Assembly (NCBI RefSeq): GCF_001509585.1
Contig: NZ_LNCI01000023.1
Coordinates: 1 to 35,047 of the forward strand
Source: Tropicimonas marinistellae
GTDB lineage: Bacteria; Pseudomonadota; Alphaproteobacteria; Rhodobacterales; Rhodobacteraceae
Reading direction: 5' to 3'
Length of the DNA stretch: 35,047 bases
A program made the position numbers and the translations under genes. Shown here one piece after another: positions 9,893 to 32,451 of this stretch. The notes beneath the pieces were generated by a model. The model made no database searches, was not told the origin of the DNA, and saw only the letters and a list, made by a program, of their open reading frames with translations. Within the stretch, counting starts at the first letter, position 1; each line of letters begins with the position of its first letter.

Positions 9893-11818
9893 ATGATCGT
9901 ACGGCTCACTGTTGCAATGGCCTTACCATTGGTCTTGTCTTTGGATGCCTCGGCGCAAATCGTGGTCAGCGAGGAAGCAGCCGAAGGGACGTTTGCCGAG
10001 CGGCCGTTTTCGCCCTATGCCAACCGAAACTTCCCGGAACGCCCACTCTGGGGTGAGACGCATTTGCACACCGGCCTGTCGCTGGATGCCGGCGCATTCG
10101 GCAACATCCTTCGCCCCGACGACGCCTGGCGCTTTGCCAAAGGTGAGCAGATCGTGTCGTCGACCGGTCAGCCTGTACGTCTCAGCCGCCCTCTGGACTG
10201 GATGGTTCTGACCGATCACACGGACCTGATGGGGTTTGCCCCTGACCTTCAAGAGGGTGACCCGGGCATCCTGTCCGATCCGAAGGGTCGGGAGTGGTAC
10301 GAAGGCTACAGCCAAGGCGGAGAAGCTGCCGGAAAATCGGCCTTCGACCTGATCACCAACTTCTCCCAAATGACACTCCCCGAGGCCATTGTTGACTCCT
10401 ATAGCCCCGGGGCGGACGCCTTTTCCTATGTCTGGGAGGAGATCGTGCTGGCGGCCGAGGAACACAATGACCCGGGCAACTTCACGGCCTTCATCGGCTT
10501 CGAATGGACCTCCGTTCCCAAGGGTTTCAATCTTCATCGCAACGTTATGCTGCGCGACGGGCCGATGCGGGCGTTGCAGGTGGTTCCGCCGGTCACGCAA
10601 CCGCCGCTGGGCGATACGGACCCCAAGGCATTGTATGAATGGCTGGAATCCTATCAGGAGAAGACCGGAGGCCGTGCCGTTGCATTTGCTCACAACGGCA
10701 ACCTGTCGAACGGCTGGATGTTCCCGACCGAGGACACCTACCATGGCGGCAAGGTCGATCAGGAGTACGTGGAGCGGCGCGCCAAGTGGGAACCGCATTA
10801 CGAAGTTACCCAGATCAAGGGCGATGGCGAGGCCCATCCCTACCTCAGCCCAGACGACGCATTCGCCGATTACGAGAACTGGGACATCGGCAACCTCGAC
10901 CTGACGGAGTTGAAATCGCAGGAAATGCTGCAGGGAGAATACGCGCGTGAGGCTTTGAAACTGGGCCTTGCGCTTGAGGAAAAGTTCGGCACCAACCCCT
11001 ACAAGTTCGGCCTTGGTGGCGCGACCGACAGCCACACCGCACTCGCCACGGCAGAAGAGGAAAACTTCTTCAGCAAGTCGGTGAGCGTCGAGCCCTCGCC
11101 CACCCGTATCGAACACCCATTCATTGCAAGCGATCTTGGGCGGATCGATGGCCATATGCTGGTGGCGTCGGGCTACACGGCGGTCTGGGCTCAGGAGAAC
11201 ACCCGCAGCGCCATCTTCGATGCCTTCAAGCGGCGCGAGACCTATGCCACCACCGGCCCTCGGATCGGCTTGCGCCTCTTCGGAGGGTGGGATTTCACGG
11301 AGGACGACTTGCGCACCCGCTCGATCGCCGAGGCGGGGTATTCCCGCGGCGTGCCGATGGGGGGCGACCTGCGTCCACGCGAAGGCGACGGTGCGCCGAC
11401 ATTCCTGATCGCGGCGCTGCGCGATCCGATTGGCGCCAACCTTGATCGCGTGCAGATCGTTAAGGGCTGGCTGGATGCCGGAGGCGAGTTACAGGAAAAG
11501 GTCTACGACGTGGCCTGGTCTGGCGACCGCGAACTGGGTGCGGACGGGAAACTGCCAGAGGTAGGCAACACCGTCGATCTGGAAACCGCAAGTTGGAGCA
11601 ACACGATCGGAACGTCGGAAATCGCGACAGTTTGGAGTGATCCCGAATTCGATCCGGCCGAACGGGCCTTCTACTACGTGCGCGTTCTTGAAATCCCGAC
11701 CCCGCGGTGGGTGGTCTACGACAAGGTCCGTTTCGGGATCGAGCTCCCCGAAGAAGCGCAACTGATCCACCAGGAACGCGCGTATTCCTCGCCCATCTGG
11801 TACACACCAGAAGGGTGA
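9893..11818 (+). CDS. Secreted DUF3604 protein, paralogue 1 (predicted PHP-like metallohydrolase)
   Basis: The product is 641 residues with a signal peptide (1-21, ending ASA). Likely metal ligands appear in order: HLH at 57-59 ([10 protein letters not shown]), TDH at 107-109, [26 protein letters not shown] and TDSHTAL. The C-terminal third has the family blocks [14 protein letters not shown] and [15 protein letters not shown]3604 has no assigned reaction. The HxH, GxE, H and DxH pattern suggests a PHP-type hydrolytic site, which is inference. The start at 9893 follows AGGAGGG. It is divergent from the AraC gene and ends in front of a strong hairpin. It shares [11 protein letters not shown] and STGQPV with paralogue 3 (TGQPV there), placing the two in one subtype. 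Confidence 0.88.
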
Positions 11819-11830
11819 AATGAGACCTCG

Positions 11831-11861
11831 TTGCGCGGCTTGGACGATCTTGGCCGCGCAA
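11831..11861 (+). terminator. Terminator hairpin after DUF3604 paralogue 1
   Basis: Perfect 9-bp arms ttgcgcggc and gccgcgcaa flank a 13-nt loop, starting 12 nt past the DUF3604 stop codon. There is no T tract after it. The position directly behind the gene makes a transcript end the most economical reading. Confidence 0.55.
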
Positions 11862-12202
11862 ACGCTTCATACTTGCGCCGCCGCCGGATGTCGGTGCCAT
11901 ACGTGTAGTTGCAAGTGCGCGAATAGCGGGCGGCTTTTCTGCCGTACCAAGGACTGCCCGAAGGCTATTGGCAGATCTTCCAAGGTTTTTGGCACAGCAT
12001 CGAAGGAATCCGTCCCCTGGATCACCCACGTACGTTTCACGAAGGTCGGCAAGCCTGAGCTGCCGAATGCCTTCGTAAAACTGACATGGTTTTGAGGAAG
12101 ACCTTAGGATGCTCCAAAAATGCTTCGAGAACCCCGCGTTGCAATGGTTCGACCCCGACGGAACGCGGGCCTGCCGGGTTGGCGCTAAGGACTGGAATGG
12201 GT
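11862..12202. other. Degraded DNA ahead of the istB remnant
   Basis: No gene is supported. Several readings are open for 60-90 codons on the plus strand, one Cys-rich, but they have no recognisable domain, no ribosome site and different frames look equally coding. It lies between the hairpin of the DUF3604 gene and the IS21-type fragment, so it may be the edge of an older insertion. Confidence 0.4.
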
Positions 12203-12463
12203 TTGCCCTTCACTCAGACCGGTGGCCAACTCCTGTTCCACCTGATCAGAAAACTCTACGAACGCACCTCGATCATCGTCACTACCATTCTCGCTTTCGG
12301 AGAATGGCCCAGCGTCTTCGGTGACGCCAAAATGACCACCCCCCTGCTCGACCGGCTCACCCCTCATTGTGAGATCGTCGAAACCGGAAACGAAAGCTGG
12401 CGCTTCAAAAAACGGGGCGTAGCGCCAAGCAACAACCACGCAGGCCCGCCGCAGCCGCGTTAA
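12203..12463 (+). pseudogene. istB: istB fragment (IS21-family ATP-binding helper), 5'-truncated
   Basis: Only the C-terminal part of IstB remains. The reading [20 protein letters not shown], then [20 protein letters not shown], then [20 protein letters not shown] followed by FKKR is a clear match to the conserved end of IS21-family IstB, the AAA-type protein that assists the IstA transposase. The Walker A region and the whole istA gene are missing. The reading frame upstream of 12203 is unrelated to IstB, so the break lies there. The element cannot move by itself. Confidence 0.85.
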
Positions 12464-12552
12464 ATGAGGACTACGCAGCGCCGGGCCTGCTCTGCCACAG
12501 TGGGGTCAATACTACACGCCGAAAAGGGGTCAGCAATCGATGCCGATTGACA
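12464..12552 (+). mobile_element. Right end of the IS21-type element
   Basis: Behind the istB fragment are two similar blocks, tggggtcaata at about 12500 and ggggtcagcaatcgatgccg at about 12526, followed by attgaca ending at 12552. IS21 elements carry repeated terminal sequences of this kind and end in CA. The left end is missing, so only the right end of the insertion sequence survives. The exact boundary at 12552 is inferred from the CA dinucleotide. Confidence 0.55.
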
Positions 12553-12792
12553 TCGAGTCGTTCTGACTGGTTCCAATCGGTCATAAAACCGAGCATCCTA
12601 CAAACGTTTGAGCGATGGCATCGCGGTCCGGACGGGCCGGCATCAGTACTTCGGCCGATGTTGAGCGACGATTCTCACGGTTCCGAATAGTGGACTCTTC
12701 AAACGCTGATGTGGCGTTGATGCAAAAACGCGAAATAAAAAACTTGATCGGCCGAAGAAGACTTCAAGGCTTTGATATTGATCTGGAATTTT

Positions 12793-12838
12793 TATTGCGG
12801 GGATGAGATTTGAACCTAGGATCTTCAGGCTATGAGCC
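12793..12838 (-). pseudogene. 3' half of an initiator tRNA-Met-like gene (possible attachment-site remnant)
   Basis: On the minus strand, GGCTCATAGCCTGAAG reads as an anticodon arm with a CAT anticodon. GGTTCAAAT follows as the T-loop core, and then ATCCCCGCAAT as the 3' acceptor strand. This order and spacing match the 3' half of bacterial initiator tRNA-Met (GGGCTCATAACCCGAAG... CCCCGCAACC). The D arm and 5' acceptor strand are absent; the sequence upstream does not pair with GCGGGG. The T stem is also imperfect (CTAGG against CTCAT). It therefore cannot make a functional tRNA. Such 3' tRNA fragments are commonly left where integrative elements recombined into a tRNA gene. Confidence 0.65.
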
Positions 12839-13186
12839 AACCGAAGGTTCGGAAGCGCGCCATTCCGGGTTGGCAAGCGTCCTGCCCATGGTCACGTTCC
12901 CTCTGGCGCATCGCACACAAAACTTCGCGCTCCGAGGCGGCGCCGAACCCCGTTGCTCGCCAAACCTGACATTAGGTGTTCCCATCGTGAAAGCCTGCTC
13001 CGGGCCCTTCTTGACGCTTTCGTCGCACGCTGCATTGCTCGAGTTCGCCGCCGCAGAAGCGCGCAATGAGGGCGGGGAACGGACTTGCCTCAGTGCCTCC
13101 ATGCAATCGAGGCGAACCCGCAAAATGCAGACAATCGCGGATGGTAAAGTTGTACGCACAACCGTTTGGTCTGCGTCGCCGCCGAA
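12839..13186. other. Intergenic DNA, coding status unclear
   Basis: Both strands are open for about 100 codons. One reading runs from 12888 on the plus strand (MVTFPLAHRTQNFALRGG). The other runs from about 13159 on the minus strand (MRTTLPSAIVCILRVRLDCM). Neither has a ribosome site, signal peptide or known domain. The stretch directly abuts the tRNA fragment, so it may be the flank of an integrated element. I make no gene call. Confidence 0.4.
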
Positions 13187-13687
13187 TCAGTGGGTGCAAA
13201 CAGTCGCGACGAGGATCAAGGCTGGGTCGATCCCAAAGGCGCTTTGAAGGTCTTGGCCGAAGAGTTCCAGCCAATCTGCCTGTGCACGATAGGCCAGCCT
13301 TTCGCGTTCTGCTGGGCAGGCAAAAATAGTGCCGGATTCCGCCTGAAAATGGTGAACCATCTCGTGAACAAGGATGGATATTTCGGCAACGGAACCGCCC
13401 GTCCAGCTTTTTGAGACCAGGATAGCTTCCTTCTCCGCGTCATAGAGGGCCACGACTTCGTCCGGATCGGAGTCGATGCCTTCTCCATATCGACGCGCGA
13501 GCAGTTCCGCCGATGGCATTGCGACAATGTCCGGCTGGGATGAAGGGCTTCCCAATTGATACTCCGAATGCAGCCAAAGGCTGATGAAATCGAGTATCGT
13601 CGGCGCTGCGCGCTGTTCTGCCGAGGCATGGGTGCACAATGCTGCAACAAGCGCGATGGCGGCACCGGTAGTTCGGACAATGTTCAT
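13187..13687 (-). CDS. Exported protein with an HExxH zinc-site motif, family uncertain
   Basis: The product is 166 residues with a signal peptide (about 1-23, ending HASA). The central motif HEMVHHFQ (HExxH) lies at about residues 108-115, in a helix-like context ISILVHEMVHHFQAESG. It is followed by CPAERERLAYRAQADWLE, where a Glu may be the third metal ligand. This resembles small periplasmic zincin-like proteins of the type annotated DUF6647, but I am not certain of the family. Substrate and proteolytic activity are unproven. Start ATG 13687 has GGAGTG upstream. It is divergent from the CadC-like regulator (125 bp between starts), which may control it. Confidence 0.75.
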   Translation of the reverse strand: MNIVRTTGAAIALVAALCTHASAEQRAAPTILDFISLWLHSEYQLGSPSSQPDIVAMPSAELLARRYGEGIDSDPDEVVALYDAEKEAILVSKSWTGGSVAEISILVHEMVHHFQAESGTIFACPAERERLAYRAQADWLELFGQDLQSAFGIDPALILVATVCTH

Positions 13688-13812
13688 GGCATTTCACTCC
13701 GGCTGAGGCGATCTGACCAAGGTCCGCCGCGGCTCGCGGGAAGTCTTGAGAAAGACGTGAAAGAGTCCGGAAATTTTGATAAGTTTGCCGGGAAATTTGA
13801 AACTCTGGGGTC

Positions 13813-15042
13813 ATGCGCGCGTCGAACACTAGGATTGGGCCCTACACTCTGAACCGCCGTCTCGGTCGCCTTGAGAATGGAGCGACCGAAGTGGCACATC
13901 TGCGTCCGAAATCGTACCGTGTCCTGGAGGTGCTGTCGGAACGCCGGGGCGAACTGGTCCCCAAGGACGACCTGATCGCCGCGGTCTGGCAGAATGTCGT
14001 GGTGACAGATGAGTCGCTTTCCCAATGCATCAGCGACATTCGCCGGGCACTCGGAAAAGATGCCGCGTATCTCCTCCGCACCGTGCCCCGTCGGGGATAC
14101 GTTCTGGACGCAGAACAATTGGGCATCATGGCTGCTCTCCAGCGCAAGCCCGCCATCTTGGCTGGTGCGTCTCTTGCCGGCGTGTGTTTGGCCGGTATCG
14201 GCGTCACGTTCTTTCCCTTCGGAACTAAATCTCCCGACCCACCGATCCCTTCGCATATCCCATCCAACGCACCCGAAAGAGCCGCCACTGCGTCTCATTG
14301 GCCGGACTGGCGCGACAGGGCGCCCAATGACGACTTGCGCGCACGCTTGGAAGCAGCGATCGCGAATGATCCGACCAACGCCGTGGCCTGGGCCAAGCTG
14401 GGACAGACCTACTGGTTGGAGGTCAAGTACAGTGCCTGGGGCGGCGGCCGACGGGAACTCGACAAGGCGCTCGATGCGCTGGAACGCGCGCTTGCGCTCG
14501 AAGGCGGCTCCGAAGCCTACCGTACCCTTGCCGATATTCGCCTCGACGCACCATACCCGGACGCACGCTCACGGGTGGATGCCTTGGCAATGGCGCAGGC
14601 GGCGGCGAACCTTTCGCCCAGTGACCCGGATGCAATGATAATCCTGGCGGCTGCTCTAACCGCCAATGACCGGGCCGAGGACGCGGTACCAATCCTCGAA
14701 CGTGCATTGGCTGAAGTTCCCACGCCTCCCGATCGGTACCGAGAGGTCGCCGGCATGACCTATCTGCTGGCGGGCGCCCCCTCCAAAGCCGTAGAGGAAT
14801 TTGGCCGCCTTCACGGGGCTGGGACCTTCGGCGGAACCCGGCACTACGCTGGATGGTTTCTGGCGGCGAGCCTTGCGCACGCCGACAGGGTCGAACGCGC
14901 AAGGATCGTTTTGGAAGAGGCATTGGAAACACGTCCCGAGAAGACGCTCGATGCCGTTGCGCTGTCGCTCGGTCACCTTGATGGCCAAGAGTTGCTGGAA
15001 GTTGTGCTGGAGGGATTGCGATTGGCAGGTGTCCAAGATTAG
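13813..15042 (+). CDS. CadC-like membrane regulator: winged helix, one membrane helix, periplasmic TPR region
   Basis: The product is 409 residues. Residues about 10-100 form an OmpR/PhoB-type winged-helix DNA-binding domain (LRPKSYRVLEVLSERRGELV, then KDDLIAAVWQ, VTDESLSQCISDIRRALG and LRTVPRRGYVL). A membrane helix follows at about 113-134. The rest is a helical region with TPR-like units (AVAWAKLGQTYWLEV, ALDALERALALEGGSEAYRT, AVPILERALAEVP). Proteins of this plan sense a periplasmic or envelope signal and bind DNA directly without a phosphorelay. The start ATG 13813 has only a weak ribosome site. It is divergent from the HExxH protein, and its stop overlaps the DctP-like gene stop tail to tail by 4 bp. 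Confidence 0.88.
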   Translation: MRASNTRIGPYTLNRRLGRLENGATEVAHLRPKSYRVLEVLSERRGELVPKDDLIAAVWQNVVVTDESLSQCISDIRRALGKDAAYLLRTVPRRGYVLDAEQLGIMAALQRKPAILAGASLAGVCLAGIGVTFFPFGTKSPDPPIPSHIPSNAPERAATASHWPDWRDRAPNDDLRARLEAAIANDPTNAVAWAKLGQTYWLEVKYSAWGGGRRELDKALDALERALALEGGSEAYRTLADIRLDAPYPDARSRVDALAMAQAAANLSPSDPDAMIILAAALTANDRAEDAVPILERALAEVPTPPDRYREVAGMTYLLAGAPSKAVEEFGRLHGAGTFGGTRHYAGWFLAASLAHADRVERARIVLEEALETRPEKTLDAVALSLGHLDGQELLEVVLEGLRLAGVQD

Positions 15043-16064
15043 TCCTGGTCGAAATCCACATTGGCGGGTCGGTAGGATTCAAGAAAACTCAGGTAATTTT
15101 GCCAAACTCGGCCGAGCTCCGGGCTGTCTTCTATCCCTGCCTCGATCACCTCCATCCAGGCCAGGTTCAATGCTTCAAGAACGTCGTCGGGCCATTGACG
15201 GATTTCGACACCCTCTGCACGAAAGCCCTCGATCGTCGCGTCCTGGCGTGGTGTCGCGACGTCGAGACTCCATCGCGAAACTGCATCGCACGACTGGGCG
15301 ATTGCGTCGCGAAAGCTTTCCGGCAATTCCAGCCACGACGTTTCGAGAACCAGAAGTTCCAGTGAAGTGGCCGGTTGCTGCCATCCCGGCAACAACAGGT
15401 ACGGTGCCATCTCGTCGAGACCCAATTCGGCATCAATAGAGGGCATTGCGAATTCTGCGGCGTCGATGATACCGGCTTCGTACGCTGAACGAATGTCAGT
15501 TCCCGGCAATTCGTATGTCGTGGTGCCCAAGACCGCCAAGGTGCGCGCGCCATATCCGAAGGCGCGCATGGAGAGTTCGCCCAAATCTTCCGCGCGCTCG
15601 ACAGGTGCCCGGAACCAACCCCCACCTTCCGCCGGCAGCGCGCCACAATAGACACTTCGGAGACCGTGGCGGCGATACAGATCATTGAGCGCCTTCGAAC
15701 CGCCACCTTCCTTCATCCACGCTGTGAATGTTCCTGGATCAGGTCCAAACGGGAAGCCGCCGAAAATCGTCAAGGTCGGATCTTCGCGGTGGTGGTGCCC
15801 TGGCGACCCCCACACAGCATCGACAAGGCCTGACCGCAGTGCTTCGAAGGCGTCCATGTCCAGAACAAGTTGATCGTGGACCTGGATCGTGAAGGCGCCA
15901 TCCGTCAATCGGCCAACCTCTTCAGCGAGGATCCGGCCGGACTCTCCGAAGAGCTCTGGCGCAAGCAGGCTGTTAACCCGCCAATGCACATTCTCCGCAG
16001 CTGGAGCGATTGGAAATTGGGCCGGGATCGCAACGGCAAGAAACACAATCGAGTTTCTAAGCAT
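15039..16064 (-). CDS. DctP-type TRAP transporter substrate-binding protein, orphan
   Basis: The product is 341 residues with a signal peptide (about 1-22, ending APAAE). It follows the DctP pattern: an N-terminal lobe (VHWRVNSLLAPELFGESGRI), the ALRSGLVDAVWGSPGHH region, the conserved RAFGYGARTLAVLGTTTYEL block and an AYEAGIIDAAEFAMPSID segment near the ligand arginine. Such proteins capture carboxylates, keto acids or related anions in the periplasm for TRAP transporters. No DctQ or DctM gene is in the window, so its membrane partner must lie elsewhere, or it may act as a sensor component. I chose ATG 16064 because the signal peptide begins there; a reading to 16139 adds 25 unlikely residues. 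It ends tail to tail with the CadC-like gene. Confidence 0.88.
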   Translation of the reverse strand: MLRNSIVFLAVAIPAQFPIAPAAENVHWRVNSLLAPELFGESGRILAEEVGRLTDGAFTIQVHDQLVLDMDAFEALRSGLVDAVWGSPGHHHREDPTLTIFGGFPFGPDPGTFTAWMKEGGGSKALNDLYRRHGLRSVYCGALPAEGGGWFRAPVERAEDLGELSMRAFGYGARTLAVLGTTTYELPGTDIRSAYEAGIIDAAEFAMPSIDAELGLDEMAPYLLLPGWQQPATSLELLVLETSWLELPESFRDAIAQSCDAVSRWSLDVATPRQDATIEGFRAEGVEIRQWPDDVLEALNLAWMEVIEAGIEDSPELGRVWQNYLSFLESYRPANVDFDQD

Positions 16065-18276: not shown

Positions 18277-18651
18277 TCGACCACCAGACGGACAGCGTGC
18301 GTCAATTGTAACGTCCACGTCGGTCGCTGATCTGCCGTCGATGCTGAACGCAGCGAATTTCGGCAGTCCGCCCTCCGCTCAGGTTTCCGCAGCCGCGTGA
18401 AGTTGTCTTTCTTCGTGCGGCGATAACGACGCGACCGTCCCAAATCCGACTTTCGACAGACCGACATTATTCCTCCGTGCGGTTCGTCGGAGGAGACGTT
18501 TATCGGCGGTGCAGCATGAACGGAGGATCAGGTACCGGCTGGGCGGGACCAGCTCGGAAGGCGCTTCTCCGGGAAGACGTATCGGCTTGTCGCTTGTCAA
18601 TGCCTGAACCAGGTCTCCATTCCAGAACGTGCTAATTCGCCAATGCCCGAA
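18277..18651. other. Intergenic DNA, no gene seen
   Basis: Between the TPR gene and the 3' end of the lipoprotein gene I see no supported gene. A 73-codon minus-strand reading (18600-18379) starts with TTG, has no ribosome site and matches nothing I recognise. No strong hairpin follows the TPR gene stop. Confidence 0.4.
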
Positions 18652-19956: not shown

Positions 19957-20287
19957 CGCCGCCCTATCGTGAGACTCTCGCTCCCGGCCTTGAAGTGCGG
20001 CAATAATAGCCACTTCAACCGAAAGCAGATGTCGCTGACGAGACAGGCGGCGTGCCAAGCCAAAATGTGAGCGATCTCGTGAGATGTCCGCTCTGGGCCC
20101 AGAGTCACAGGAAACGTGCGGCGCCTTCTCGCAGACGCGGCAAGTCCTCGGACAGCGCGAACGACCCAGTGCCGCCGTTCAAAGAATGCGCCTGTCCTGC
20201 GGTTCGGCAGCACTGAACCAGCCATTTGTTGATTGCGCAGCATCCGATACGAAGCTGAAATGGTTACCTAACTGTGCTCGACGTCCG
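19957..20287. other. Intergenic DNA between two convergent genes
   Basis: No gene is supported. It separates the hemerythrin-like gene from the 3' end of the Crp/Fnr gene. A minus-oriented relative of the dispersed repeat (gatgtccgctctgggccc, 20083-20100) is present. Confidence 0.45.
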
Positions 20288-21013
20288 TCAGGCTCCATCC
20301 TTCTTGGGAGACTTGTCGACTCCAGCCGCTGCGCGCAGGGCATCGATGTCGGTCACGCTCATCCGACCATAGCTGCGCCGAATGATGCCGTTGCGTTCAA
20401 ACTCCTCAAGGTGAGATCCGACGACTGAACGGGAGAGGTTTGCCATCTGCGCGAGGTCGGATTGCGTGACGTCGATCTCCGACGAGACGGAGTCTTCTGC
20501 GGTTCCGAGACGCGCACCGCATAGACGGACAAGCACGGCAGCGAGGCGCGCCTTGGAGGAGCGGATCATCGCATCGTCGAGCGCCGCGACCGCAAGGCTC
20601 AGGTGCTCAAAGGCCAGCAGCCCGATGCCACGCCACAGTTCCGGCCGCTCGCGTGCAAGCGTTTCGATGGTCTTGGCTCCGATGAAAAGGTACTCGCACG
20701 AGCGTAACGCGGACATCGAGGTGATCCGCGGCGAGTCTGCGAGAAACTCGGCCTCGCCGAGCCACGCACCGGCGTGAAAGGTACTCAACATCGAAGGTCC
20801 GTGACGAGACCAAATCGTATCCATCCGCACACTTCCCGAGATCAATCCGTAGAGGCCGTCGGGTTTATCGCCATAGGTCCAGAAAACCGTACCTGAAGGG
20901 CATTTGTGACGAACGGCGGCATCGCGGACACGTTGCGCCAGATCCGCGGGTAGGACGGACAACCAGTCTGCGCGTGAAAGAAGCGCGTCCGCGCCATCAG
21001 GTGGCGAATGCAT
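20288..21013 (-). CDS. Crp/Fnr-family regulator 1, divergent to DUF3604 paralogue 2
   Basis: The product is 241 residues. Residues about 20-125 form a cyclic-nucleotide-binding-like beta barrel (FWTYGDKPDGLYGLISGSVR, then FHAGAWLGEAEFLADSPRI). A dimer helix and a C-terminal winged helix-turn-helix follow (VTQSDLAQMANLSRSVVGSH, then LEEFERNGIIRRSYGRMSV). There is no Fnr-type cysteine cluster, so an iron-sulfur oxygen sensor is unlikely; the ligand is unknown. I choose ATG 21013, with GGGGAG about 9 nt upstream, over a reading to 21052. The DUF3604 gene starts 157 bp away on the other strand, and an inverted repeat (21035-21053) lies just upstream of this gene, consistent with local and self control. 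Confidence 0.9.
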   Translation of the reverse strand: MHSPPDGADALLSRADWLSVLPADLAQRVRDAAVRHKCPSGTVFWTYGDKPDGLYGLISGSVRMDTIWSRHGPSMLSTFHAGAWLGEAEFLADSPRITSMSALRSCEYLFIGAKTIETLARERPELWRGIGLLAFEHLSLAVAALDDAMIRSSKARLAAVLVRLCGARLGTAEDSVSSEIDVTQSDLAQMANLSRSVVGSHLEEFERNGIIRRSYGRMSVTDIDALRAAAGVDKSPKKDGA

Positions 21014-21034
21014 GTGATCAATCTCCCCGCGCCA

Positions 21035-21053
21035 AATGCCTGAAACCGGCATT
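21035..21053. promoter_or_regulatory. Inverted repeat upstream of Crp/Fnr regulator 1 (candidate operator)
   Basis: Perfect arms aatgcc and ggcatt are separated by 7 nt. The repeat begins 22 bp upstream of the regulator start. In the same spacer, a second imperfect dyad ggcatacatgtgcc (21131-21144) lies 26 bp before the DUF3604 start and shares the GGCA/TGCC half. Operator function is inferred from position and symmetry. Confidence 0.35.
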
Positions 21054-21169
21054 CCTTGATGCCTATGCGTGCTACCTTGCTGTTGCGGCAGGTGTCCAGA
21101 TCTGACCGATCATTTATCGCATGGGGCGTCGGCATACATGTGCCTTCGCCTCTCAATGGGAGGATATTC

Positions 21170-23059
21170 ATGCGTTCTGTTGTACTTGCAGCGACCTTGG
21201 GCTGCGCACCTCTCTTCGCAGCAACGGCTCAGGAACTCCCGGGGCTCAGGCCCGGCACGGATATCGAGTATTCGCCCTACCTGCAGGAGGACTTTCCGAA
21301 CCAGGTCTTCTTCGGCGATACACACTTGCACACATCGTTCTCGGCCGATGCCGGGTTGGTCGGTGCAACGACGACGCCAGACGACGCGTTCCTTTTCGCC
21401 AAGGGCGAGGAAGTGATCTCCTCCAATGGCATCCCGGCGCGTCTTCAGCGACCGCTCGACTGGCTCGTGGTGACGGATCATGCGGAGAACCTCGGCATCC
21501 CTGCCGCCCTCGCGGCCGAAGACCCCGTCCTGACCGACACCGAATGGGGCGCCCAACTGGCCGAAATCGCTGCACCTGGCACGGAGGAATCGATGGTCGC
21601 CTCCTACGAATTCTGGATGCAGGCAACCTTCGCCGGCGAGGACCCATTGGCGGGGACGCCGTTCGGGCAGACCATGTGGAAGAAGGCGACCGAGGCCACT
21701 GAGCGCCACAACGACCCGGGCGCCTTCACCGCCTTCATCGGCTTCGAATGGACCTCGCAGCCCAATGGGTCGAACATGCACCGGAACATCATCTACCGGG
21801 ACGGTAAGGACCTCGCCGACCGGAAGGTGCCGATCAGTTCCTATGACAGCGACGATCCAGAGGTGCTCTGGGACTGGATGGCCGACTACGAGGAAACAAC
21901 GGGCGGCCGGATGTTCGCGATCCCGCATGGCGGCAACCTCTCCAACGGCCTGATGTTCGATGATATCACCCTGTCCGGTGAGCCGCTTACGGCGGACTAC
22001 GCGGAGCGCCGCATGCAATACGAACCACTCTACGAGATCACGCAAATGAAGGGCGACGGCGAAGCCCACCCGATGCTCTCGCCCGACGACGCGTTTGCGG
22101 ATTATGGCACATGGGACAAGGGCAGCTTCGGCCCTGAGCCGAAGACGCCGGACATGCTGCCCAAGGAATATGCCCGCTCCGCCCTGAAGCGTGGCCTCGC
22201 GTACGAAGCCGAACTCGGCGCCAACCCGTTCAAGTTCGGCGTCGTCGGCTCGACGGACGCGCACACCGGTCTGTCGACGTCGACGGAGGACAACTTTTTC
22301 GGCAAGGTCGCGCTCGTCGAGCCTACGGGCAATCCGATCCGCTACGAGGAAGCAATCACCGGCCGTGCGACACCTGATCCAGCCGACGACCTGACCCATG
22401 CGGACGCAATCGCATCCGGGATCGCCGCGGTCTGGGCGCGGGAGAACACGCGCGAGGCGCTCTGGGACGCGATGGAGCGGAAGGAAGTCTACGCGACGAC
22501 GGGAACGCGCCTCCGGGTCCGTGTTTTTGGCGGGTGGGATTTCGAGGAAGCGGACATGACCCGTTCCGACTTCGCCGCGCACGGCTACGAGGCCGGCGTT
22601 CCGATGGGCTCTGATCTGAGTGACGGGCCAGAAGGCGCCGTGCCGAAGCTTCTGATCCGTGCGCTGCGCGACCCCGATGGGGCCAATCTCGACCGGATCC
22701 AGGTGGTCAAGGGTTGGATCTCGGCTGAAGGACCGGGGGAGCGGGTTTACGACGTGGCATGGTCGGACGACCGCCAGCCCGACGCCGATGGCAAGCTGCC
22801 CCCGGTTGGCGATACGGTGGACCCGCAGACGGCAACCTATACGAACGCGATCGGGGAGCCCTATCTCGACGCCTTCTGGGCGGACCCGGATTTCGACCCG
22901 TCGCAGCGCGCCTTCTACTACGTCCGCGTGCTCGAAATCCCAACTCCGCGCTGGACGACCTATGACAGCGTCTTCTTCGGTATCGACCTACCCGAGACCG
23001 TGGATGCCAGCCAGCAGGAGCGCGCGTACACTTCGCCAATCTGGTACACGCCGGGTTGA
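21170..23059 (+). CDS. Secreted DUF3604 protein, paralogue 2 (predicted PHP-like metallohydrolase)
   Basis: The product is 629 residues with a signal peptide (1-20, ending AATA). The conserved metal-site set is complete: HLH at 52-54 (FFGDTHLHTSFSADAG), TDH at 102-104, IGFEWTS, MHRNIIYRD, PHGGNLSNGLMF and STDAHTGLS. The C-terminal blocks [23 protein letters not shown] and ERAYTSPIWYTPG are also present. HGGN in place of HNGN and the WDWMADYEETTGG block group it with paralogue 4 and not with paralogues 1 and 3. The start follows GGGAGGA closely. It is divergent from Crp/Fnr regulator 1 and is followed by a strong hairpin, so it is probably a single-gene transcript. The substrate is unknown. 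Confidence 0.88.
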   Translation: MRSVVLAATLGCAPLFAATAQELPGLRPGTDIEYSPYLQEDFPNQVFFGDTHLHTSFSADAGLVGATTTPDDAFLFAKGEEVISSNGIPARLQRPLDWLVVTDHAENLGIPAALAAEDPVLTDTEWGAQLAEIAAPGTEESMVASYEFWMQATFAGEDPLAGTPFGQTMWKKATEATERHNDPGAFTAFIGFEWTSQPNGSNMHRNIIYRDGKDLADRKVPISSYDSDDPEVLWDWMADYEETTGGRMFAIPHGGNLSNGLMFDDITLSGEPLTADYAERRMQYEPLYEITQMKGDGEAHPMLSPDDAFADYGTWDKGSFGPEPKTPDMLPKEYARSALKRGLAYEAELGANPFKFGVVGSTDAHTGLSTSTEDNFFGKVALVEPTGNPIRYEEAITGRATPDPADDLTHADAIASGIAAVWARENTREALWDAMERKEVYATTGTRLRVRVFGGWDFEEADMTRSDFAAHGYEAGVPMGSDLSDGPEGAVPKLLIRALRDPDGANLDRIQVVKGWISAEGPGERVYDVAWSDDRQPDADGKLPPVGDTVDPQTATYTNAIGEPYLDAFWADPDFDPSQRAFYYVRVLEIPTPRWTTYDSVFFGIDLPETVDASQQERAYTSPIWYTPG

Positions 23060-23362
23060 CCGATCACTTCGTCTCGCTCAATCGAGAAAAAAACGGCTCG
23101 ATTGCCGTGACAAGGGCGGCGCTACCCTCGTGGCGCCGCCCTACCTTACCGCCGCCGCCCTTCCGAAGCGTCATTTTAGTCTGTGAAATACTGCCAACGG
23201 AGCCGTTTCTGGTGACCGCAACTGCCATTCACGAAGGTCGGATTCTCAGCCCGACGAGCGGGCGCCTTTCGACTGCTGCGGATTCACACTTCCCGCCCTT
23301 CCTTACGAATGCTGCGCGCACAGGCTTGCGACTGGGTCGACTACGTTCGGAGATGAAGTCCC
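23060..23362. other. Intergenic DNA between convergent genes
   Basis: Besides the terminator at 23113-23142 I see no gene. Short open readings cross it in several frames without a domain or ribosome site. The block at 23225-23330 (ccattcacgaaggtcgg and following) resembles other degraded intergenic blocks of the window. Confidence 0.45.
23113..23142 (+). terminator. Strong hairpin after DUF3604 paralogue 2
   Basis: Perfect 10-bp arms agggcggcgc and gcgccgccct enclose a 10-nt loop about 53 nt past the DUF3604 stop. It lies between two convergent genes, so it may serve both strands. No T run follows it on the plus strand. Confidence 0.65.
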
Positions 23363-24124
23363 CTAAGCCGCTGGCATTACGCCCTCCGCTTCGGCCGCCA
23401 AGGCTTCAGGGTTCTTGATCAAGGTAAGGGCGTATTTCAGTTCAATCATGTTCCTGGCTTCAAAGTCCTTGAGAAGCAAAGATGCCGTTGATGGAGACAG
23501 GTTCGCCAGAGCCGAGATTTCAGCCTGACTGGCCGGGACTTTGTCCATTTCGACATTGCTTTGGTGGATACCTCTTCGGCCGCACAATCGAAGGAGTGTC
23601 GCCGCCAAACGCATACGGCCTGTTCGAAGAAGAAGGTCGTTTGCAGCTGACATCGACAGCAAGAGTGTGAGAGCACATAATGCGCCGAGGGCTACGAGTA
23701 CTTCGGGGCGGCGCTTCGAAAGACGTCGAAACCCGGCATAAGGAACTCGAACTAATTCGGCGCGTCCGGCGACATTGTGCTCCACGACACCTGGAGAATT
23801 CAGGAAAAGCTCAGCAGATCCAAACCAAGTTCCGGGGCCATGAACGTGGGCAAGAGCCGGTTCCATTTCGTTGCTGCCGACGAGGACCCGCACTTGACCC
23901 GACGCAATGCCCCAGATGTACTCCTGTTTCTGACCGAACCCGTAGATCACGTCCTGATCGCTAAAGGATACACTTTCCGAGAGCGCTCGAACCTCCTCCA
24001 GCGCGTCGTTGGACAGGCTGCCGAGCCAAGTTGCCTTGAACGGGTCTGCGACCTGCAACTCCTCCAAAACCTCCGAAATCAGAAAGTCTTGAGTGACCGT
24101 CTCCGCTATCGTTTCAGGTGTCAA
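23363..24124 (-). CDS. Crp/Fnr-family regulator 2, divergent to DUF3604 paralogue 3
   Basis: The product is up to 253 residues. An effector-binding beta barrel (YGFGQKQEYIWGIASGQVRV, then HVHGPGTWFGSAELFLNSPG) is followed by a dimer helix with RMRLAATLLRLCGRR and a C-terminal winged helix-turn-helix (ASQAEISALANLSPSTASLL, then LKDFEARNMIELKYALTLI). It resembles regulator 1 in layout (LLRLCGRR against LVRLCGARL), so the two are probably old paralogues. No Fnr-type cysteine cluster is seen. The start is uncertain: 24124 is a TTG without a clear ribosome site, and internal TTG codons near residues 20-23 are alternatives. The DUF3604 gene begins 44 bp away on the opposite strand, so the promoters must overlap. 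Confidence 0.88.
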   Translation of the reverse strand: MTPETIAETVTQDFLISEVLEELQVADPFKATWLGSLSNDALEEVRALSESVSFSDQDVIYGFGQKQEYIWGIASGQVRVLVGSNEMEPALAHVHGPGTWFGSAELFLNSPGVVEHNVAGRAELVRVPYAGFRRLSKRRPEVLVALGALCALTLLLSMSAANDLLLRTGRMRLAATLLRLCGRRGIHQSNVEMDKVPASQAEISALANLSPSTASLLLKDFEARNMIELKYALTLIKNPEALAAEAEGVMPAA

Positions 24125-24136
24125 CCGCGAGGGTTG
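24122..24136. promoter_or_regulatory. Inverted repeat in the 44-bp divergent spacer (candidate operator)
   Basis: The arms caacc and ggttg are separated by 5 nt (gcgag) and lie at the start of regulator 2, 32 bp before the DUF3604 start. With such a short spacer the site would affect both directions. Short arms like these can arise by chance, so confidence is low. Confidence 0.25.
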
Positions 24137-24167
24137 CGCAAAGATTGACGCAGATGGGTTGGAAAAG

Positions 24168-26087
24168 ATGAATATATTTCATTGTCTTGCTGGTTTTGTT
24201 TTTGCGGTGCCTGGCATTGTCTTCGCGCAGGAGGTGGTTCCCGAGGCCACAGCTGGGTTCCTCAAGGGGAGACCCTATTCACCTTATGCGGACCGTGCGT
24301 TTCCGGAGCGCGTGTTCTTCGGGGATACGCATGTGCACACGGCGCTGTCGGCGGATGCCGGTGGTGGCGGTACCCGGTTGATGCCGCGCGACGCCTACCG
24401 GTTCGCACGCGGTGAACAGGTCACTTCGAATACCGGGCAGCCCGTCAAGCTGCCACGTCCTTTCGACTTCTACATGATCACCGACCACTCAGACGGCATG
24501 GGCGCGATCACCGACATCCTTTCGGGCGCACCGAACATTCTGGCCGATGAACAAGGCCGTCGTTTTCATGAGGCCTTCAACCAAGGCGGTGAAATTGCAC
24601 TGCGAGCCTCTCAGGAGATGACCGCGAGTTTCGCGCAAGGCACGATCAGTCCAGCCTTGAACTACCAGCCGGGCAACCCGGCTTATGAGCGGGTTTGGGA
24701 CGATCTGATCAGCATTGCTGAGGAGTTCAATCAGCCAGGGGTCTTTACGACCTTCGCCGCGTTTGAATGGACGTCCCTGGTGCAAGGCAACAATCTGCAC
24801 CGCAACATCATACTGCGTGATGGGCCGGAGAAGACGGGCCAAATCGTGCCCTATACCACGACACCACCGCTTGGATCGTCCAACCCACGCGACCTTTACG
24901 CTTGGCTTCAGATTTATGAGGACACGACCGGCGGCGACGCGCTCGCCATTGCCCATAACGGAAACCTTTCGAACGGCTGGATGTTCTCGCTCGTCGACGA
25001 CTTTGCCGATGGCACCCCGCCCCTCGACCGGGACTACGCCGAACAGCGCCAGAAATGGGAACCGCTCTACGAGTGGTCTCAATACAAGGGTGACGGCGAG
25101 ACACATCCGTTGCTGTCGTCCGAGGACGAGTTCGCCGATTTCGAAACCTGGGATTATGGCAACCTCGACGCGTCGGTGGCCAAGACACCGGAGATGCTGC
25201 CTGGCGAGTATGCCCGTTCCGGCCTTCTGCGTGGTCTGGCGCTTCAAGCCGAGTTGGGGGTGAACCCGTACAAGTTCGGAGCAAACGCCGCGACAGATAC
25301 ACATATCGGGATAACGACAGTTTCCGAGGACAACTTCTTCAGCAAGCAGGTTCCTTACGAACCGAGCGCAGAGCGTGCGAGCCACGTCGGCAAAGCGTTC
25401 GCCGATGGCAACGTCGCCTATTATGGGTCTGCCTACAGCGCTGCCGGACTCACCGCAGTCTGGGCGCGCAAAAACACCCGCGGTGCAATTTTCGATGCGA
25501 TGGAACGTCGCGAAGCCTATGCCACCACCGGACCGCGCATGTCGGTGCGCTTCTTCGGTGGCGACTACGATCCCGATGCGCTCGCCCGTCGCGACCTGGC
25601 GCGCATCGGTTACTCAGGTGGCGTGCCGATGGGCGGCGACCTCAGCGTCGCCGAAGGCGAAGCCCCGGACTTCCTCGTCTATTCCCTGCGGGATGCAGTG
25701 GGCGCCAATCTCGACCGCATCCAGATCGTCAAGGGCTGGATCGACACCGAGACGGGCGCGGCCATGGAGAGGGTCTACGACGTGGCCTGGGGCGGAGAAC
25801 GATCACCTGGCGCGGACGGCATGCTGCCGCCTGTCGGCAACACCGTCGACCTCTCGATTCCGTCCTGGACCAACACAATTGGATCGCCAGAGCTTGGCGC
25901 GGTCTGGACTGACCCGGATTTCGACCCGGCCGAACCCGCCTTCTACTACGCCCGCGTGATCGAGATCCCGACGCCACGATGGACAGCCTATGACGCGGTG
26001 AAGTTCGGCGCCGAGATGCCGGAAGGCACGCCAATGACCACACAGGATCGCGCTTACACCTCGCCGATTTGGTTTACGCCCGACTAG
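24168..26087 (+). CDS. Secreted DUF3604 protein, paralogue 3 (predicted PHP-like metallohydrolase)
   Basis: The product is 639 residues with a signal peptide (1-20, ending IVFA). The candidate metal-site motifs are HVH at 55-57 (GDTHVHTALSADAG), TDH at 105-107, [28 protein letters not shown] and ATDTHIGIT. The C-terminal blocks NLDRIQIVKGW, YARVIEIPTPRW and AYTSPIWFTPD match the family. HNGN, the TGQPVKL block and the FNQGGE segment near residue 140 group it with paralogue 1. Start ATG 24168 has GGAAAAG upstream. It is divergent from Crp/Fnr regulator 2. A truncated DUF3604 gene starts 12 bp after its stop and was probably cotranscribed with it. Confidence 0.88.
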   Translation: MNIFHCLAGFVFAVPGIVFAQEVVPEATAGFLKGRPYSPYADRAFPERVFFGDTHVHTALSADAGGGGTRLMPRDAYRFARGEQVTSNTGQPVKLPRPFDFYMITDHSDGMGAITDILSGAPNILADEQGRRFHEAFNQGGEIALRASQEMTASFAQGTISPALNYQPGNPAYERVWDDLISIAEEFNQPGVFTTFAAFEWTSLVQGNNLHRNIILRDGPEKTGQIVPYTTTPPLGSSNPRDLYAWLQIYEDTTGGDALAIAHNGNLSNGWMFSLVDDFADGTPPLDRDYAEQRQKWEPLYEWSQYKGDGETHPLLSSEDEFADFETWDYGNLDASVAKTPEMLPGEYARSGLLRGLALQAELGVNPYKFGANAATDTHIGITTVSEDNFFSKQVPYEPSAERASHVGKAFADGNVAYYGSAYSAAGLTAVWARKNTRGAIFDAMERREAYATTGPRMSVRFFGGDYDPDALARRDLARIGYSGGVPMGGDLSVAEGEAPDFLVYSLRDAVGANLDRIQIVKGWIDTETGAAMERVYDVAWGGERSPGADGMLPPVGNTVDLSIPSWTNTIGSPELGAVWTDPDFDPAEPAFYYARVIEIPTPRWTAYDAVKFGAEMPEGTPMTTQDRAYTSPIWFTPD

Positions 26088-26099
26088 GGAGCTGCTTCC

Positions 26100-26360
26100 A
26101 TGAGAAAGCTGCTGATAACGGTCATGTGCGTCACTTCCCCGTTGGCTGTGAGCGGACAAGACGCGCCACATGTGGAACCAGCCGACACGGAGGCTTACTC
26201 GCCCTATAAAGGGCAGGATTTTCCCAATCGGGTGCTCTTCGGGGATACGCATCTCCACACGGCATACTCGGCCGATACCGGGTTGGCCTATGCAACGCTT
26301 ACACCCGAAGACGCCTTTCGGTTCGCAAAGGGCGAAATGGTCGGGTCGGAATTCCTGTAG
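26100..26360 (+). pseudogene. Truncated DUF3604 gene, paralogue 5, fused to integrase sequence
   Basis: Only the first 79 codons of a DUF3604 protein remain. They comprise a signal peptide (about 1-20), SPYKGQDFPNRVLFGDTHLH (HLH at 51-53) and the family block LTPEDAFRFAKGE. The next residues, MVGSEFL and a stop, are not DUF3604 but the in-frame continuation of the integrase (MIGSEFL in the intact copy), placing the junction at about 26337. About 550 codons, including all other metal ligands, are lost. The start follows GGGAGC 12 bp after paralogue 3, so the two formed an operon. The surviving part (SADTGLAYATLTPEDAF) looks closest to paralogues 2 and 4. A short exported peptide may still be made. 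Confidence 0.85.
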
Positions 26361-26627
26361 CCAGGCCGCTTCCATGAGCGGCTGCACATCTCCACCCGCA
26401 AGTATGCTCGCCTTGTTCGAGAATGGGTCCAATCGATTGGGCTGGATCCCACTTCGTACGGAACTCACCCGATGCGTCGAACCAAGGTTGCCCAGATATA
26501 TAGAAAAACTGGCAACCTTTGAGCGGTGCAACTGTTACTGGGACACACGAAGATGGATAGCACTGTCCATTATCTCGGTGTCGATTTGGAGAATGCACTG
26601 TCAATCGCTGAGTCTGTAGAGATCTGA
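26338..26627 (+). pseudogene. Decayed C-terminal fragment of a tyrosine recombinase
   Basis: The sequence corresponds to about codons 115-210 of the integrase at 2415-3047. Shared segments include PGRFHERLH, YARLVREWVQ, IGLDPTSYGTH, MRRTKVAQIYRKTGNL, KMDSTV and YLGVDLE. Two in-frame stops break it, at the codons matching Trp122 (TAG) and Arg176 (TGA). It keeps the GH of LLGH, which is GQ in the other copy, as well as HxxR and the catalytic Tyr. Homology continues past its stop into the hairpin (26634-26656) and a ggctttgccgac-like block, so the repeated unit is larger than the gene. No N-terminal part exists here, so it is non-functional. Confidence 0.9.
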
Positions 26628-26975
26628 CGAGTTGGGCCGGTCCACGCGATCGACCCATCTTGGCGTTACGCCGGTTTTCCGAGTCAGCTTTGCCGACACT
26701 GCAGTCATCTGACAAAAGTGATCGGATGTCCGTTTCGAGCGCGGGACATCGAGGGCAGATGTCCGAAACCTCTCGCGTCAGACACCGATATTCCGGGTTC
26801 GTATCTCCGCGAGGAGAGGATTTCCAATTAACGTGGTGTGGGCTGCGACGAGCGGCACGCCGCGACCTGTTTGAGGTTGGTCTTGTGGATGTTACGGTCA
26901 GATAGGCCCGCAGATGTAAGAGTCGTGTGGCTTGTCTTTGATCCGTCAGCATTTACGCACTGCAGGAGATACCTC
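26628..26975. other. Scar region upstream of DUF3604 paralogue 4
   Basis: The first 80 bp or so continue the integrase-flank homology, including the imperfect hairpin at 26634-26656. The rest has no supported gene. The promoter of paralogue 4 should lie in the last part. No regulator gene is present here, unlike the other three complete DUF3604 genes. The block at about 26725-26770 (gatgtccgtttcgagcgcg) is another relative of the dispersed repeat. Confidence 0.5.
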
Positions 26976-28868
26976 ATGCGCCTCGCATCATGCACTGCCA
27001 TTGGCTTCCTGTTAGCACTTCCCATCGATGCGCAGGACATCGCCGTGACAGAGGAAGATATCAATATCGGCAGCCAGGAATACTCGCCCTATCTTCATCA
27101 GAGTTTTCCCGACCGCGTCTTCTTCGGTGATACGCATCTGCACACAAGCTACTCCACCGACGCAGGGATGGTGGGCAACAGGCTCGGACCGGACGAGGCA
27201 TTGCGCTTCGCCAAGGGAGAGACGGTCATTTCCTCGACGGGACTTCCCGCACGCCTGATCCGCTCCCTCGACTTCCTAGTCGTTGCAGACCACGCAGAAA
27301 ATCTGGGCCTCGCGCCAATGATCGAGGTTTCCGATCCTGAGCTGCTCAGAGACCCGCAGGGCAAGAAATACCACGACCTCGTCAAGTCGGGGAACGGTTG
27401 GGAAGCGTACCAGCTCTGGAAAAAATCTGGCGCCGCCCTCGAAGATTCCATGCCGAACCCAAAACTTCAGGCGAAAGCCTGGAACCAGATCATCGACACG
27501 GTCGATCACCACAACCAACCCGGTGTCTTCACGGCGTTCCATGGCTTCGAGTGGACCTCCTCGCCGGATCTGCGCAACCTCCATCGGAATGTCATTTTCC
27601 GTGACGGTGCCGAGGAAGCCCGACAAGTCATTCCGTTCAGCATCTTCGACTCCACTGACCCGGAAGACCTTTGGGACTATATGGAGATGTACGAAGAGAC
27701 GACCGGCGGCAGCGCCCTTGCCATTCCCCACGGCGGCAACCTCAGTCAGGGCCTTATGTTCGCTGTCGAGCGCATGAATGGCGAACCGATTGATGCCGAC
27801 TACGCTGAAAGGCGCATGCGGTGGGAGCCCATCTACGAAGCCACCCAGATCAAGGGCGACGGCGAAGTGCATCCGATGCTCTCGCCGAATGACGAATTTG
27901 CCGATTACTACCAGTGGGACAAGGGCGATTTCGGGATGAATCCGAAGGAACCGGAGATGCTGCCGAATGAATATGCCCGCAGCGCGCTTATGATCGGCCT
28001 GGAACAGGCTGAGAAGACCGGTAGCAATCCGTTCAAGTTCGGCATGATTGGCGCCACAGACAGCCACACGTCGCTTGCATCGACGCGTGAGGAGAACTTC
28101 TTCGGGAAGTTCGCTGGCACGGAGCCGGCCACCGATACGCGATACTCCGATCTCGTCAGCCAGGACCTGCGCCCGGACGGGGACGGATCACTGAATGTCT
28201 ACCACTGGGAATCGCTTGCCGCGGGCCTTGCTGGTGTCTGGGCGAAGGAAAATACGCGAGAGGCGCTGTGGGACGCGATGGCCCGAAAGGAGGTCTACGC
28301 GACCACGGGCACGCGCCTTCTGGTCCGGGTTTTTGCTGGATGGAACTTCGGAGCCGATGAAGTCAACCGCCCTGATTTCGCGCGGTACGGCTACCAGAAC
28401 GGGGTGCCCATGGGAGGCGACCTGAATCGCGCGCCCGATGGCGCCGCGCCGCAATTCATGGTTCGCGTGCTGCGCGACCCGGATGGCGCCAATATTGATC
28501 GTATCCAGATGGTTAAAGGCTGGCTCGACCCCAATGGCGAGGCTCAGGAGAAGGTCTTCGACATAGCCTGTGCTGACCGGGAAATCGTTGAGGACAAGTG
28601 CAGCGGCCCGGTGGGGGACACCGTGGATGTAGAGAACGCGAGCTATTCCAACACTATTGGTCGTGCCGTGCTCGGCAGCTACTGGGAAGATCCGGAGTTC
28701 GACCCTGCGCAACGTGCCTTCTACTACGTGCGCGTTCTTGAGATTCCGACGCCGACCTGGATTGCCCACGACGAGAAGATCTTCGGCAAGCGCGACGCAC
28801 CCGACGAGGCGCTCCGCAAACACCAGGAACGCGCCTATACATCGCCGATCTGGTACAACCCTGGCTGA
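26976..28868 (+). CDS. Secreted DUF3604 protein, paralogue 4 (predicted PHP-like metallohydrolase)
   Basis: The product is 630 residues with a signal peptide (about 1-19, ending PIDA). The motifs are HLH at 54-56 (FFGDTHLHTSYSTDAG), ADH at 104-106, HGFEWTS, LHRNVIFRD, PHGGNLSQGLMF and ATDSHTSLA. The C-terminal end has [23 protein letters not shown] and ERAYTSPIWYNPG. It differs from the others by ADH in place of TDH and by a Cys-containing insertion (ACADREIVEDKCSG) before VGDTVD. HGGN and YEETTGG group it with paralogue 2. Start ATG 26976 has AGGAGA upstream; the longer reading to 26838 crosses the integrase scar. No regulator adjoins it. Confidence 0.88.
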   Translation: MRLASCTAIGFLLALPIDAQDIAVTEEDINIGSQEYSPYLHQSFPDRVFFGDTHLHTSYSTDAGMVGNRLGPDEALRFAKGETVISSTGLPARLIRSLDFLVVADHAENLGLAPMIEVSDPELLRDPQGKKYHDLVKSGNGWEAYQLWKKSGAALEDSMPNPKLQAKAWNQIIDTVDHHNQPGVFTAFHGFEWTSSPDLRNLHRNVIFRDGAEEARQVIPFSIFDSTDPEDLWDYMEMYEETTGGSALAIPHGGNLSQGLMFAVERMNGEPIDADYAERRMRWEPIYEATQIKGDGEVHPMLSPNDEFADYYQWDKGDFGMNPKEPEMLPNEYARSALMIGLEQAEKTGSNPFKFGMIGATDSHTSLASTREENFFGKFAGTEPATDTRYSDLVSQDLRPDGDGSLNVYHWESLAAGLAGVWAKENTREALWDAMARKEVYATTGTRLLVRVFAGWNFGADEVNRPDFARYGYQNGVPMGGDLNRAPDGAAPQFMVRVLRDPDGANIDRIQMVKGWLDPNGEAQEKVFDIACADREIVEDKCSGPVGDTVDVENASYSNTIGRAVLGSYWEDPEFDPAQRAFYYVRVLEIPTPTWIAHDEKIFGKRDAPDEALRKHQERAYTSPIWYNPG

Positions 28869-32436: not shown

Positions 32437-32451
32437 CTGGTGCACTGACTA

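Follow-up and report, generated by a model that had tools for sequence, protein, structure and literature searches.

Divergent Crp/Fnr- and AraC-type regulators in a DUF3604 gene array of Tropicimonas marinistellae

Contig NZ_LNCI01000023.1 of Tropicimonas marinistellae, analyzed over its entire length of 35,047 b (the window), belongs to a genome of 5.42 Mb in 41 contigs and carries an array of genes of the protein family DUF3604. Searches with the PF12228 profile confirmed four intact copies and one truncated copy within 19 kb, all on the plus strand, as an earlier reading of the sequence (the original prediction) had claimed. The intact genes are copy A (9893..11818; E = 2e-235), copy B (21170..23059; E = 1.4e-234), copy C (24168..26087; E = 1.7e-223), and copy D (26976..28868; E = 7e-228). 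Each is full length, with scores of 743 to 783 bits against a cut-off of 20.4 and alignments covering profile positions 2 or 3 to 591 of 591. The truncated copy (~26100..26360) retains only the N-terminal part (profile positions 3 to 45). No NCBIfam model matched the four intact copies, and no PHROGs profile matched copy B.

Three of the four intact copies face a divergent regulator gene on the minus strand, and Pfam bears out the families originally named. An AraC-type regulator (8716..9753; Arabinose_bd plus HTH_18, the latter at 8.5e-18) is divergent to copy A, and two Crp/Fnr-like regulators, both with cNMP_binding and HTH_Crp_2 domains above the cut-offs, are divergent to copy B (Crp 1; 20288..21013, alternative start at 21052) and copy C (Crp 2; 23363..24124, start possibly at ~24067). 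With the starts first assigned, the spacers measure 154, 156, and 43 b (44 to 157 bp in the original prediction). The start of a near-copy of Crp 1 in another genome (locus L163) is the equivalent of 21013, and for Crp 2 a start near 24067 is the better fit to the family, which would give a spacer of ~100 b. Copy D has no adjacent regulator, and only the truncated DUF3604 remnant lies upstream of it. The regulators had been called private to the genes that they face; the divergent arrangement holds, but the AraC-type regulator is not obviously private to DUF3604, because a sulfatase gene (7121..8611, minus strand; PF00884, 2.7e-51) is next on its own strand. The translation of this gene contains CTPSR, a formylglycine motif of the form C-x-P-x-R.

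An unrooted tree of 149 DUF3604 proteins places the four window copies in four separate supported sets. Each has its closest kin in another genome (copy A, 92% identical in G008; copy B, 94% in G004; copy C, 82% in Ruegeria arenilitoris; copy D, 77% in Ruegeria sediminis), and the other window copies are 49 to 54% identical to copy B. The copies thus come from separate lineages, and the array was assembled rather than tandem duplicated; local tandem duplication as its origin is ruled out by the tree. A single DUF3604-regulator unit that duplicated and then diverged quickly would fit the common orientation of four copies in 19 kb and the Crp type of two of the three regulators, but such an origin is very improbable given that the window copies are 77 to 94% identical to genes of other genomes, against ~50% to their neighbors, and fall in separate supported sets. 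One 50-b stretch shared by copies A and B (10463-10512 and 21707-21756) is 92% identical in surroundings of ~64% identity, and may be either a short tract of gene conversion or a segment under strong conservation.

Comparison at the DNA level (matches of ≥200 b at ≥78% identity) suggests that enzyme and regulator are conserved or moved together. The block of Crp 1 and copy B (20155..23315, ~3.2 kb) is 89% identical by blastn to a contig of G004 (C11; locus L163), with no other match in that locus. Positions 4000-8491 match a G002 locus at 79%, and the order sulfatase-AraC-DUF3604 recurs there. Copy A by itself matches G008 at 83%, where no regulator was found, and G007 at 79%, where the regulator is of the LysR type. 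These block matches and regulator swaps point both to pairs that are conserved or moved as blocks and to regulators that are exchangeable around one enzyme. The original statement that the array is not a duplication of gene-regulator blocks stands inside the window, but other genomes (G004 and G002) share such blocks by conservation or transfer. Relative to the nearest kin, the ratio of nonsynonymous to synonymous substitution rates (dN/dS) was 0.04 to 0.10 for the four DUF3604 copies and 0.11 for Crp 1, with several pairs near synonymous saturation. Since the copies are mutually divergent, occupy separate supported sets, keep the candidate active-site residues described below, and are under purifying selection, the proposal that they form a repertoire of enzymes is a fair reading.

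In the host genome as a whole, DUF3604 is represented by 12 intact genes in addition to five pieces. A divergent regulator accompanies five of the 12 intact copies (three Crp and two AraC), and the original description of almost every complete copy as having its own regulator, true of three of the four in the window, does not extend to the genome. For the eight intact copies that lie elsewhere in the genome, the upstream neighbors by Pfam are AraC (divergent), Crp (divergent), GntR (codirectional), acetate kinase, Gfo/Idh/MocA, a sulfatase, a thiamine pyrophosphate enzyme, and PEMT. Among regulators, three of the 13 HTH_Crp_2 matches above the cut-off in this genome and two of the 25 AraC matches face DUF3604; these proportions, like the presence of four of the 12 intact copies within 19 kb, exceed what chance would give. 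Further DUF3604 remnants were seen in the genome at L016 (9432-10374), G000:C3:29814-30080, G000:C40:143702-143839, and L234 (7145-7678); one of them matches part of copy B at 82% DNA identity, and one lies near a sulfatase-linked Crp gene on C6.

DUF3604 was found in 55 of 390 genomes of the order, and at least 595 relatives were confirmed. The survey of their surroundings covered near-full-length copies only, with G066 and gene pieces left out, as were four of the 80 named loci (L057, L076, L103, and L121), which duplicate relatives' loci; nine loci (L059, L067, L078, L092, L098, L122, L147, L159, and L171) yielded no row because gene calling did not return the full-length copy. Gene calls were supplemented with regulators from an open reading frame (ORF) search. 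Each of the profiles for LysR, GntR, TetR, DeoR, and MarR drew on one to three seeds, and these families are therefore undercounted, equally in DUF3604 and control rows. A divergent regulator within 700 b upstream was present at 5/12 copies of the host, 7/54 in relatives, and 5/75 in named genomes (17/141 in total), compared with 4/87, 7/241, and 11/307, respectively, for other genes of ≥250 amino acids, a control that shares its loci with the DUF3604 genes and is not independent. Counted as direct divergent neighbors, regulators accompanied 17/137 DUF3604 genes and 20/581 other genes of the same loci (p = 1e-4); with operon heads counted, the figures were 27/137 and 48/581 (p = 3e-4). In the taxonomically broad set there was no significant excess, whether by operon heads (9/73 versus 20/276; p = 0.16) or by direct neighbors (5/73 versus 10/276; p = 0.33). 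The association of DUF3604 with divergent regulators, which the original prediction proposed to look for in other genomes, is thus real within the window's own family and not significant beyond it. A universal rule linking DUF3604 to a regulator is ruled out by the counts, most copies having none.

Within four genes of DUF3604, the commonest neighbors in 126 loci were HupE/UreJ (33 loci), peptidylprolyl isomerase (32), another DUF3604 gene (25), and sulfatase (16), followed by one AraC cluster (12), DUF1254/DUF1214 (11), Crp (9), and Phenol_MetA_deg (7). A family of ~246 amino acids that carries no name was also seen near DUF3604 in 10 of the 126 loci (L013, L063, L064, L077, and L168 among them), and the single member scanned had no Pfam match.

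A tree and a profile place the two Crp-like proteins of the window in a separate subfamily of Crp/Fnr. They share the cNMP_binding and HTH_Crp_2 domains of known Crp/Fnr regulators (CRP, FNR, and FixK), although Crp 1 and Crp 2 are only 27% identical. A tree of 26 Crp proteins has a branch with support of 99 that separates all nine that adjoin DUF3604, together with two proteins of the host genome and two others, from eight host and five other proteins. DUF3604 adjacency required four changes on this tree, against 7.7 for shuffled labels (1 of 500 shuffles as low). A profile built from nine Crp proteins of DUF3604 loci (eight divergent and one codirectional) gave 24 matches of ≥129 bits among 100 relatives, followed by a gap down to 108 bits, which sets the subfamily apart from other Crp/Fnr regulators.

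Members of this subfamily face a recurrent set of enzyme genes, namely those for DUF3604, sulfatases, and DUF1254/DUF1214 proteins (hereafter, the guild). A divergent guild gene lay within 800 b of 19 of the 24 members (DUF3604 in 6, sulfatase in 11, and DUF1254/DUF1214 in 2) and of none of 25 control Crp genes (20 lower-scoring and five from the host genome). Nor was there a DUF3604, sulfatase, or DUF1254 gene within 4 kb, in the stretch examined, at any of the 25 control loci, five of which are short. Five of the six DUF3604-facing cases are profile seeds and the sixth is a near-copy; without these six, the counts are 13/18 versus 0/25 (p = 2e-7). Across 390 genomes of the order the profile had 57 matches, 11 of which the first set already contained. 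Among the remaining 46, the 27 with loci were examined, and 18 were divergent to the guild (DUF3604 in 4, sulfatase in 13, and DUF1254 in 1). One of these (L276) is 100% identical to a seed (L096), and without it 17 of 26 face the guild, in nine of 14 genera; another (L275) is 84% identical to the seed L138. The nine other members face Phenol_MetA_deg (one), an FAD/NAD oxidoreductase (two), or ORFs with no Pfam match (six), these facing ORFs being the longest opposite ones rather than verified genes. In the host genome, whose guild places comprise 12 DUF3604, 13 sulfatase, and five DUF1254 genes, all five subfamily genes face a guild gene. DUF3604 itself was present in 29 of 42 genomes with the Crp subfamily and in 26 of 348 without it (by genus, 11/16 versus 7/123).

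A similar pattern was found for the AraC-type regulators, for which a profile of seven proteins from DUF3604 loci gave 54 matches in 15 genomes, 20 of them with loci. Twenty-three scored ≥179 bits, and 12 of the 16 of these with loci were divergent to a guild gene (DUF3604, sulfatase, or DUF1254) at a distance of up to 1.5 kb, with another gene intervening in two; the four lower-scoring matches with loci had none (0/4). Without five seeds, 7 of 11 faced the guild within 1.5 kb, compared with 2 of 24 other AraC proteins of the host genome (p = 0.001), for which the view extended ~700 b upstream; at ≤700 b the subfamily count was 6 of 11 against the same 2 of 24 (p = 0.006). One of the control positives (L220) is related to the DUF3604-facing AraC of L013. 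The window protein has the domain order of AraC regulators with Arabinose_bd and their divergent local arrangement but differs in that its subfamily faces DUF3604, sulfatase, and DUF1254 genes. Its best NCBIfam match is QhpR (162 bits, below the cut-off of 250). The regulator subfamilies are not specific to DUF3604 genes: their members also face sulfatases and DUF1254 genes.

Taken together, these results favor, with a probability of about 0.6, the interpretation that the window is a mosaic island collecting four anciently separate DUF3604 genes, three of them divergent to a local regulator, that the Crp and AraC subfamilies are wired to a guild of sulfatases, DUF3604, and DUF1254/DUF1214 proteins, and that DUF3604 is an exported hydrolase of the PHP fold. 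Each regulator would sit at the promoter region shared by the divergent genes, respond to a cue, and then switch the facing enzyme gene, and several ester-cleaving enzymes of one scavenging guild could in this way be turned on separately. From gene order, subfamily membership, partner statistics, conserved blocks, PHP-like residues, and purifying selection, all read from the sequence, we infer regulator binding, the cue, export, catalysis, and sulfate or phosphate ester substrates. The occurrence of the same regulator families opposite sulfatases and another little-studied family elsewhere suggests a shared scavenging toolkit. A bolder version, which we offer only tentatively, is that two unrelated regulator subfamilies, one of them a Crp/Fnr branch that has left cyclic AMP (cAMP), serve a mobile guild of exported hydrolases as local switches that can replace one another, that DUF3604 is a new class of PHP-fold sulfate or phosphate ester hydrolase, and that each cassette answers to its own substrate.

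Several results weigh against this interpretation. A directly divergent regulator is absent from 7 of 12 host copies and 120 of 137 surveyed copies, and, as noted, the excess is not significant in the broad set. No guild partner was found for 5 of 24 and 9 of 27 Crp-subfamily members (27 counting L276), and the cases are not independent, since many members come from few genera (g1 and g43). Regulator labels also follow the DUF3604 tree poorly: the Crp label required 8 changes against 8.9 for shuffled labels (68 of 500 as low) and the AraC label 5 against 5.9 (29 of 500), while all regulator labels together required 15 against 16.8 (2 of 200), partly owing to near-copies.

The regulators could instead be passengers, i.e., ordinary divergent pairs that mobile or plasmid DNA carried along together with DUF3604 and whose targets are distant or global. 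The regulator beside copy A changes among its close relatives: it is of the AraC type in the window and in L156 and of the LysR type in L164, and the profiles detected none at L160 or L153. Most DUF3604 copies lack a regulator, and the island contains recombinase and insertion sequence remnants. The truncated DUF3604 gene runs into the broken 3' end of a tyrosine-recombinase gene (26337..26697, plus strand, from the translation) and looks like a recombination scar, because self blastn shows the recombinase end to which it is joined to be an inverted, 85% identical copy of 2348-2705. Passengers would not, however, be expected to face the same three enzyme families repeatedly, as the two subfamilies do in several genera while the 25 control Crp loci hold none, and the Crp gene of the conserved block has a dN/dS of 0.11; we consider this explanation unlikely.

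Alternatively, the Crp and AraC proteins may control a general response to sulfur or energy starvation, in which case the DUF3604 copies would be coregulated rather than individually switched. One genome holds several Crp paralogues, and several sulfatase-linked Crp genes adjoin a gene of ~650 amino acids: the one in L240 (4330-6327, following the Crp gene) encodes a multiheme cytochrome c with TPR by a Pfam scan of that locus, and genes of like size occupy the same place in L235, L242, L244, and L249. The low identity of the two window Crp proteins (27%) and the lack of a shared operator among DUF3604-linked spacers argue for the individual switches of the favored interpretation, and a common starvation response seems possible but doubtful. 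The spacers do not speak for local switches in every respect, as palindromes in 24 Crp spacers were not above shuffled sequences (combined p = 0.12) and no operator common to the Crp spacers was found overall. One palindrome, CCATCANNTGATGG, is exact in three sulfatase-linked Crp spacers of three genomes (L240, L241, and L248) and is a candidate operator of the sulfatase-linked Crp branch. It differs from the window spacers at 4 and 5 positions, and in the host genome, which lacks an exact site, 18 sites differ from it at one position (the reversed control gives 3), all outside the window contig.

The cue of the Crp-type regulators is probably not cAMP. Arg82 and Ser83 belong to the phosphate-binding cassette of CRP; in an alignment read by eye, the Ser83 place is not Ser in any of the nine DUF3604-adjacent proteins, and Crp 2 and three others of the nine lack Arg82, which makes cAMP an unlikely cue. 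Crp 1 keeps the Arg, and L187 of the host genome keeps both residues. The N-terminal cysteine cluster of the oxygen-sensing Fnr type was not seen by eye in either window protein.

DUF3604 is predicted from structure models to be a PHP-type metallohydrolase. AlphaFold2, run on 58 sequences, gave a model of copy B with a mean predicted local distance difference test (pLDDT) of 93 and a predicted template modeling (TM) score of 0.91, and PHP domains were the top PDB matches of both models in Foldseek, with a best E value of 2.7e-5 in one: BVU_3505 (3e38), TM0559 (2anu), and the PHP domain of RNase AM (7ug9). Ten residues (H52, H54, D60, D97, H104, E193, H204, H253, D363, and H365) do not vary among the 58 sequences or the 12 host copies. 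We presume these to be PHP metal ligands, as they correspond to the HxH, DH, E, H, DxH pattern expected of a PHP metal center. The N termini of most of the 12 host copies, including copy A, look like signal peptides by eye, and the protein is probably exported. DUF3604 differs from PHP phosphoesterases in its ~600 residues, long insertions, a C-terminal beta-rich part, this apparent export, and the lack of a sequence match to any PDB chain.

Some observations tell against the assignment to the PHP fold. The E values of the better model were marginal (8e-4 and 9.6e-4), with unrelated proteins next, and TM scores to PHP domains were modest (0.42 to 0.60, normalized by target length). DUF3604 has no sequence relative in the PDB, and no Pfam PHP profile was matched, so that the claim rests on predicted structure; at E values up to 1, the four window proteins matched only DUF3604, and for P0004 one weak match to an unrelated viral family was listed besides it at the same limit. 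PHP folds vary in chemistry, and no function of DUF3604 was found in the open-access literature, which would be consistent with another PHP-fold activity (on lactones or peptides, for example) or with a noncatalytic binding protein. This is a real possibility, although we lean away from it because the candidate ligands are invariant in 58 of 58 sequences and the regulator subfamilies are common to DUF3604 and sulfatases. Most likely, DUF3604 is an exported, metal-dependent hydrolase of the PHP fold.

The company that DUF3604 keeps elsewhere is compatible with an exported metalloenzyme. An operon of DUF3604, peptidylprolyl isomerase, and HupE/UreJ was present in all five rhizobial and rhodobacterial plasmid regions examined of 79 matching records, and the two partners could serve the folding and metal supply of such an enzyme. 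The DUF3604 family is the same as that of the window, but the window copies showed no neighboring peptidylprolyl isomerase or HupE gene.

Catabolic genes with a local divergent regulator are of a known kind; what is new is the guild, in which one set of three enzyme families is linked to two subfamilies of regulators. Among the matches listed in open-access full text, no described system of this form was found, no description of DUF3604 function or of this Crp subfamily, and no mention of PF12228. DUF3604 had one passing mention in the matched text (PMC11925237), and a table row of PMC6710368 lists a DUF1254 gene in an NnrR profile. DUF3604 is widespread, with 12 intact copies in this genome, yet scarcely mentioned in that literature. 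The shared regulator subfamilies provide a functional lead, since they put DUF3604 in the same regulatory slot as sulfatases and thereby make its role testable through the regulators. This may matter for the recovery of sulfur, phosphorus, or carbon from organic esters by marine bacteria.

Other features of the window include a second tyrosine-recombinase fragment (2415..3047, minus strand; PF00589, 5e-12) and the 3' piece of an IS21-type IstB gene (12086..12463, plus strand; PF01695, profile positions 165 to 235 of 238). No Rfam family was matched in the window at gathering scores. The stretch 31441-35024 encodes an IetA-like AAA ATPase and, after it, an IetS-like subtilase spread over two ORFs (32452-33345 and 33342-35024), and the pair is a candidate anti-phage defense system of the IetAS type in which IetS is possibly broken.

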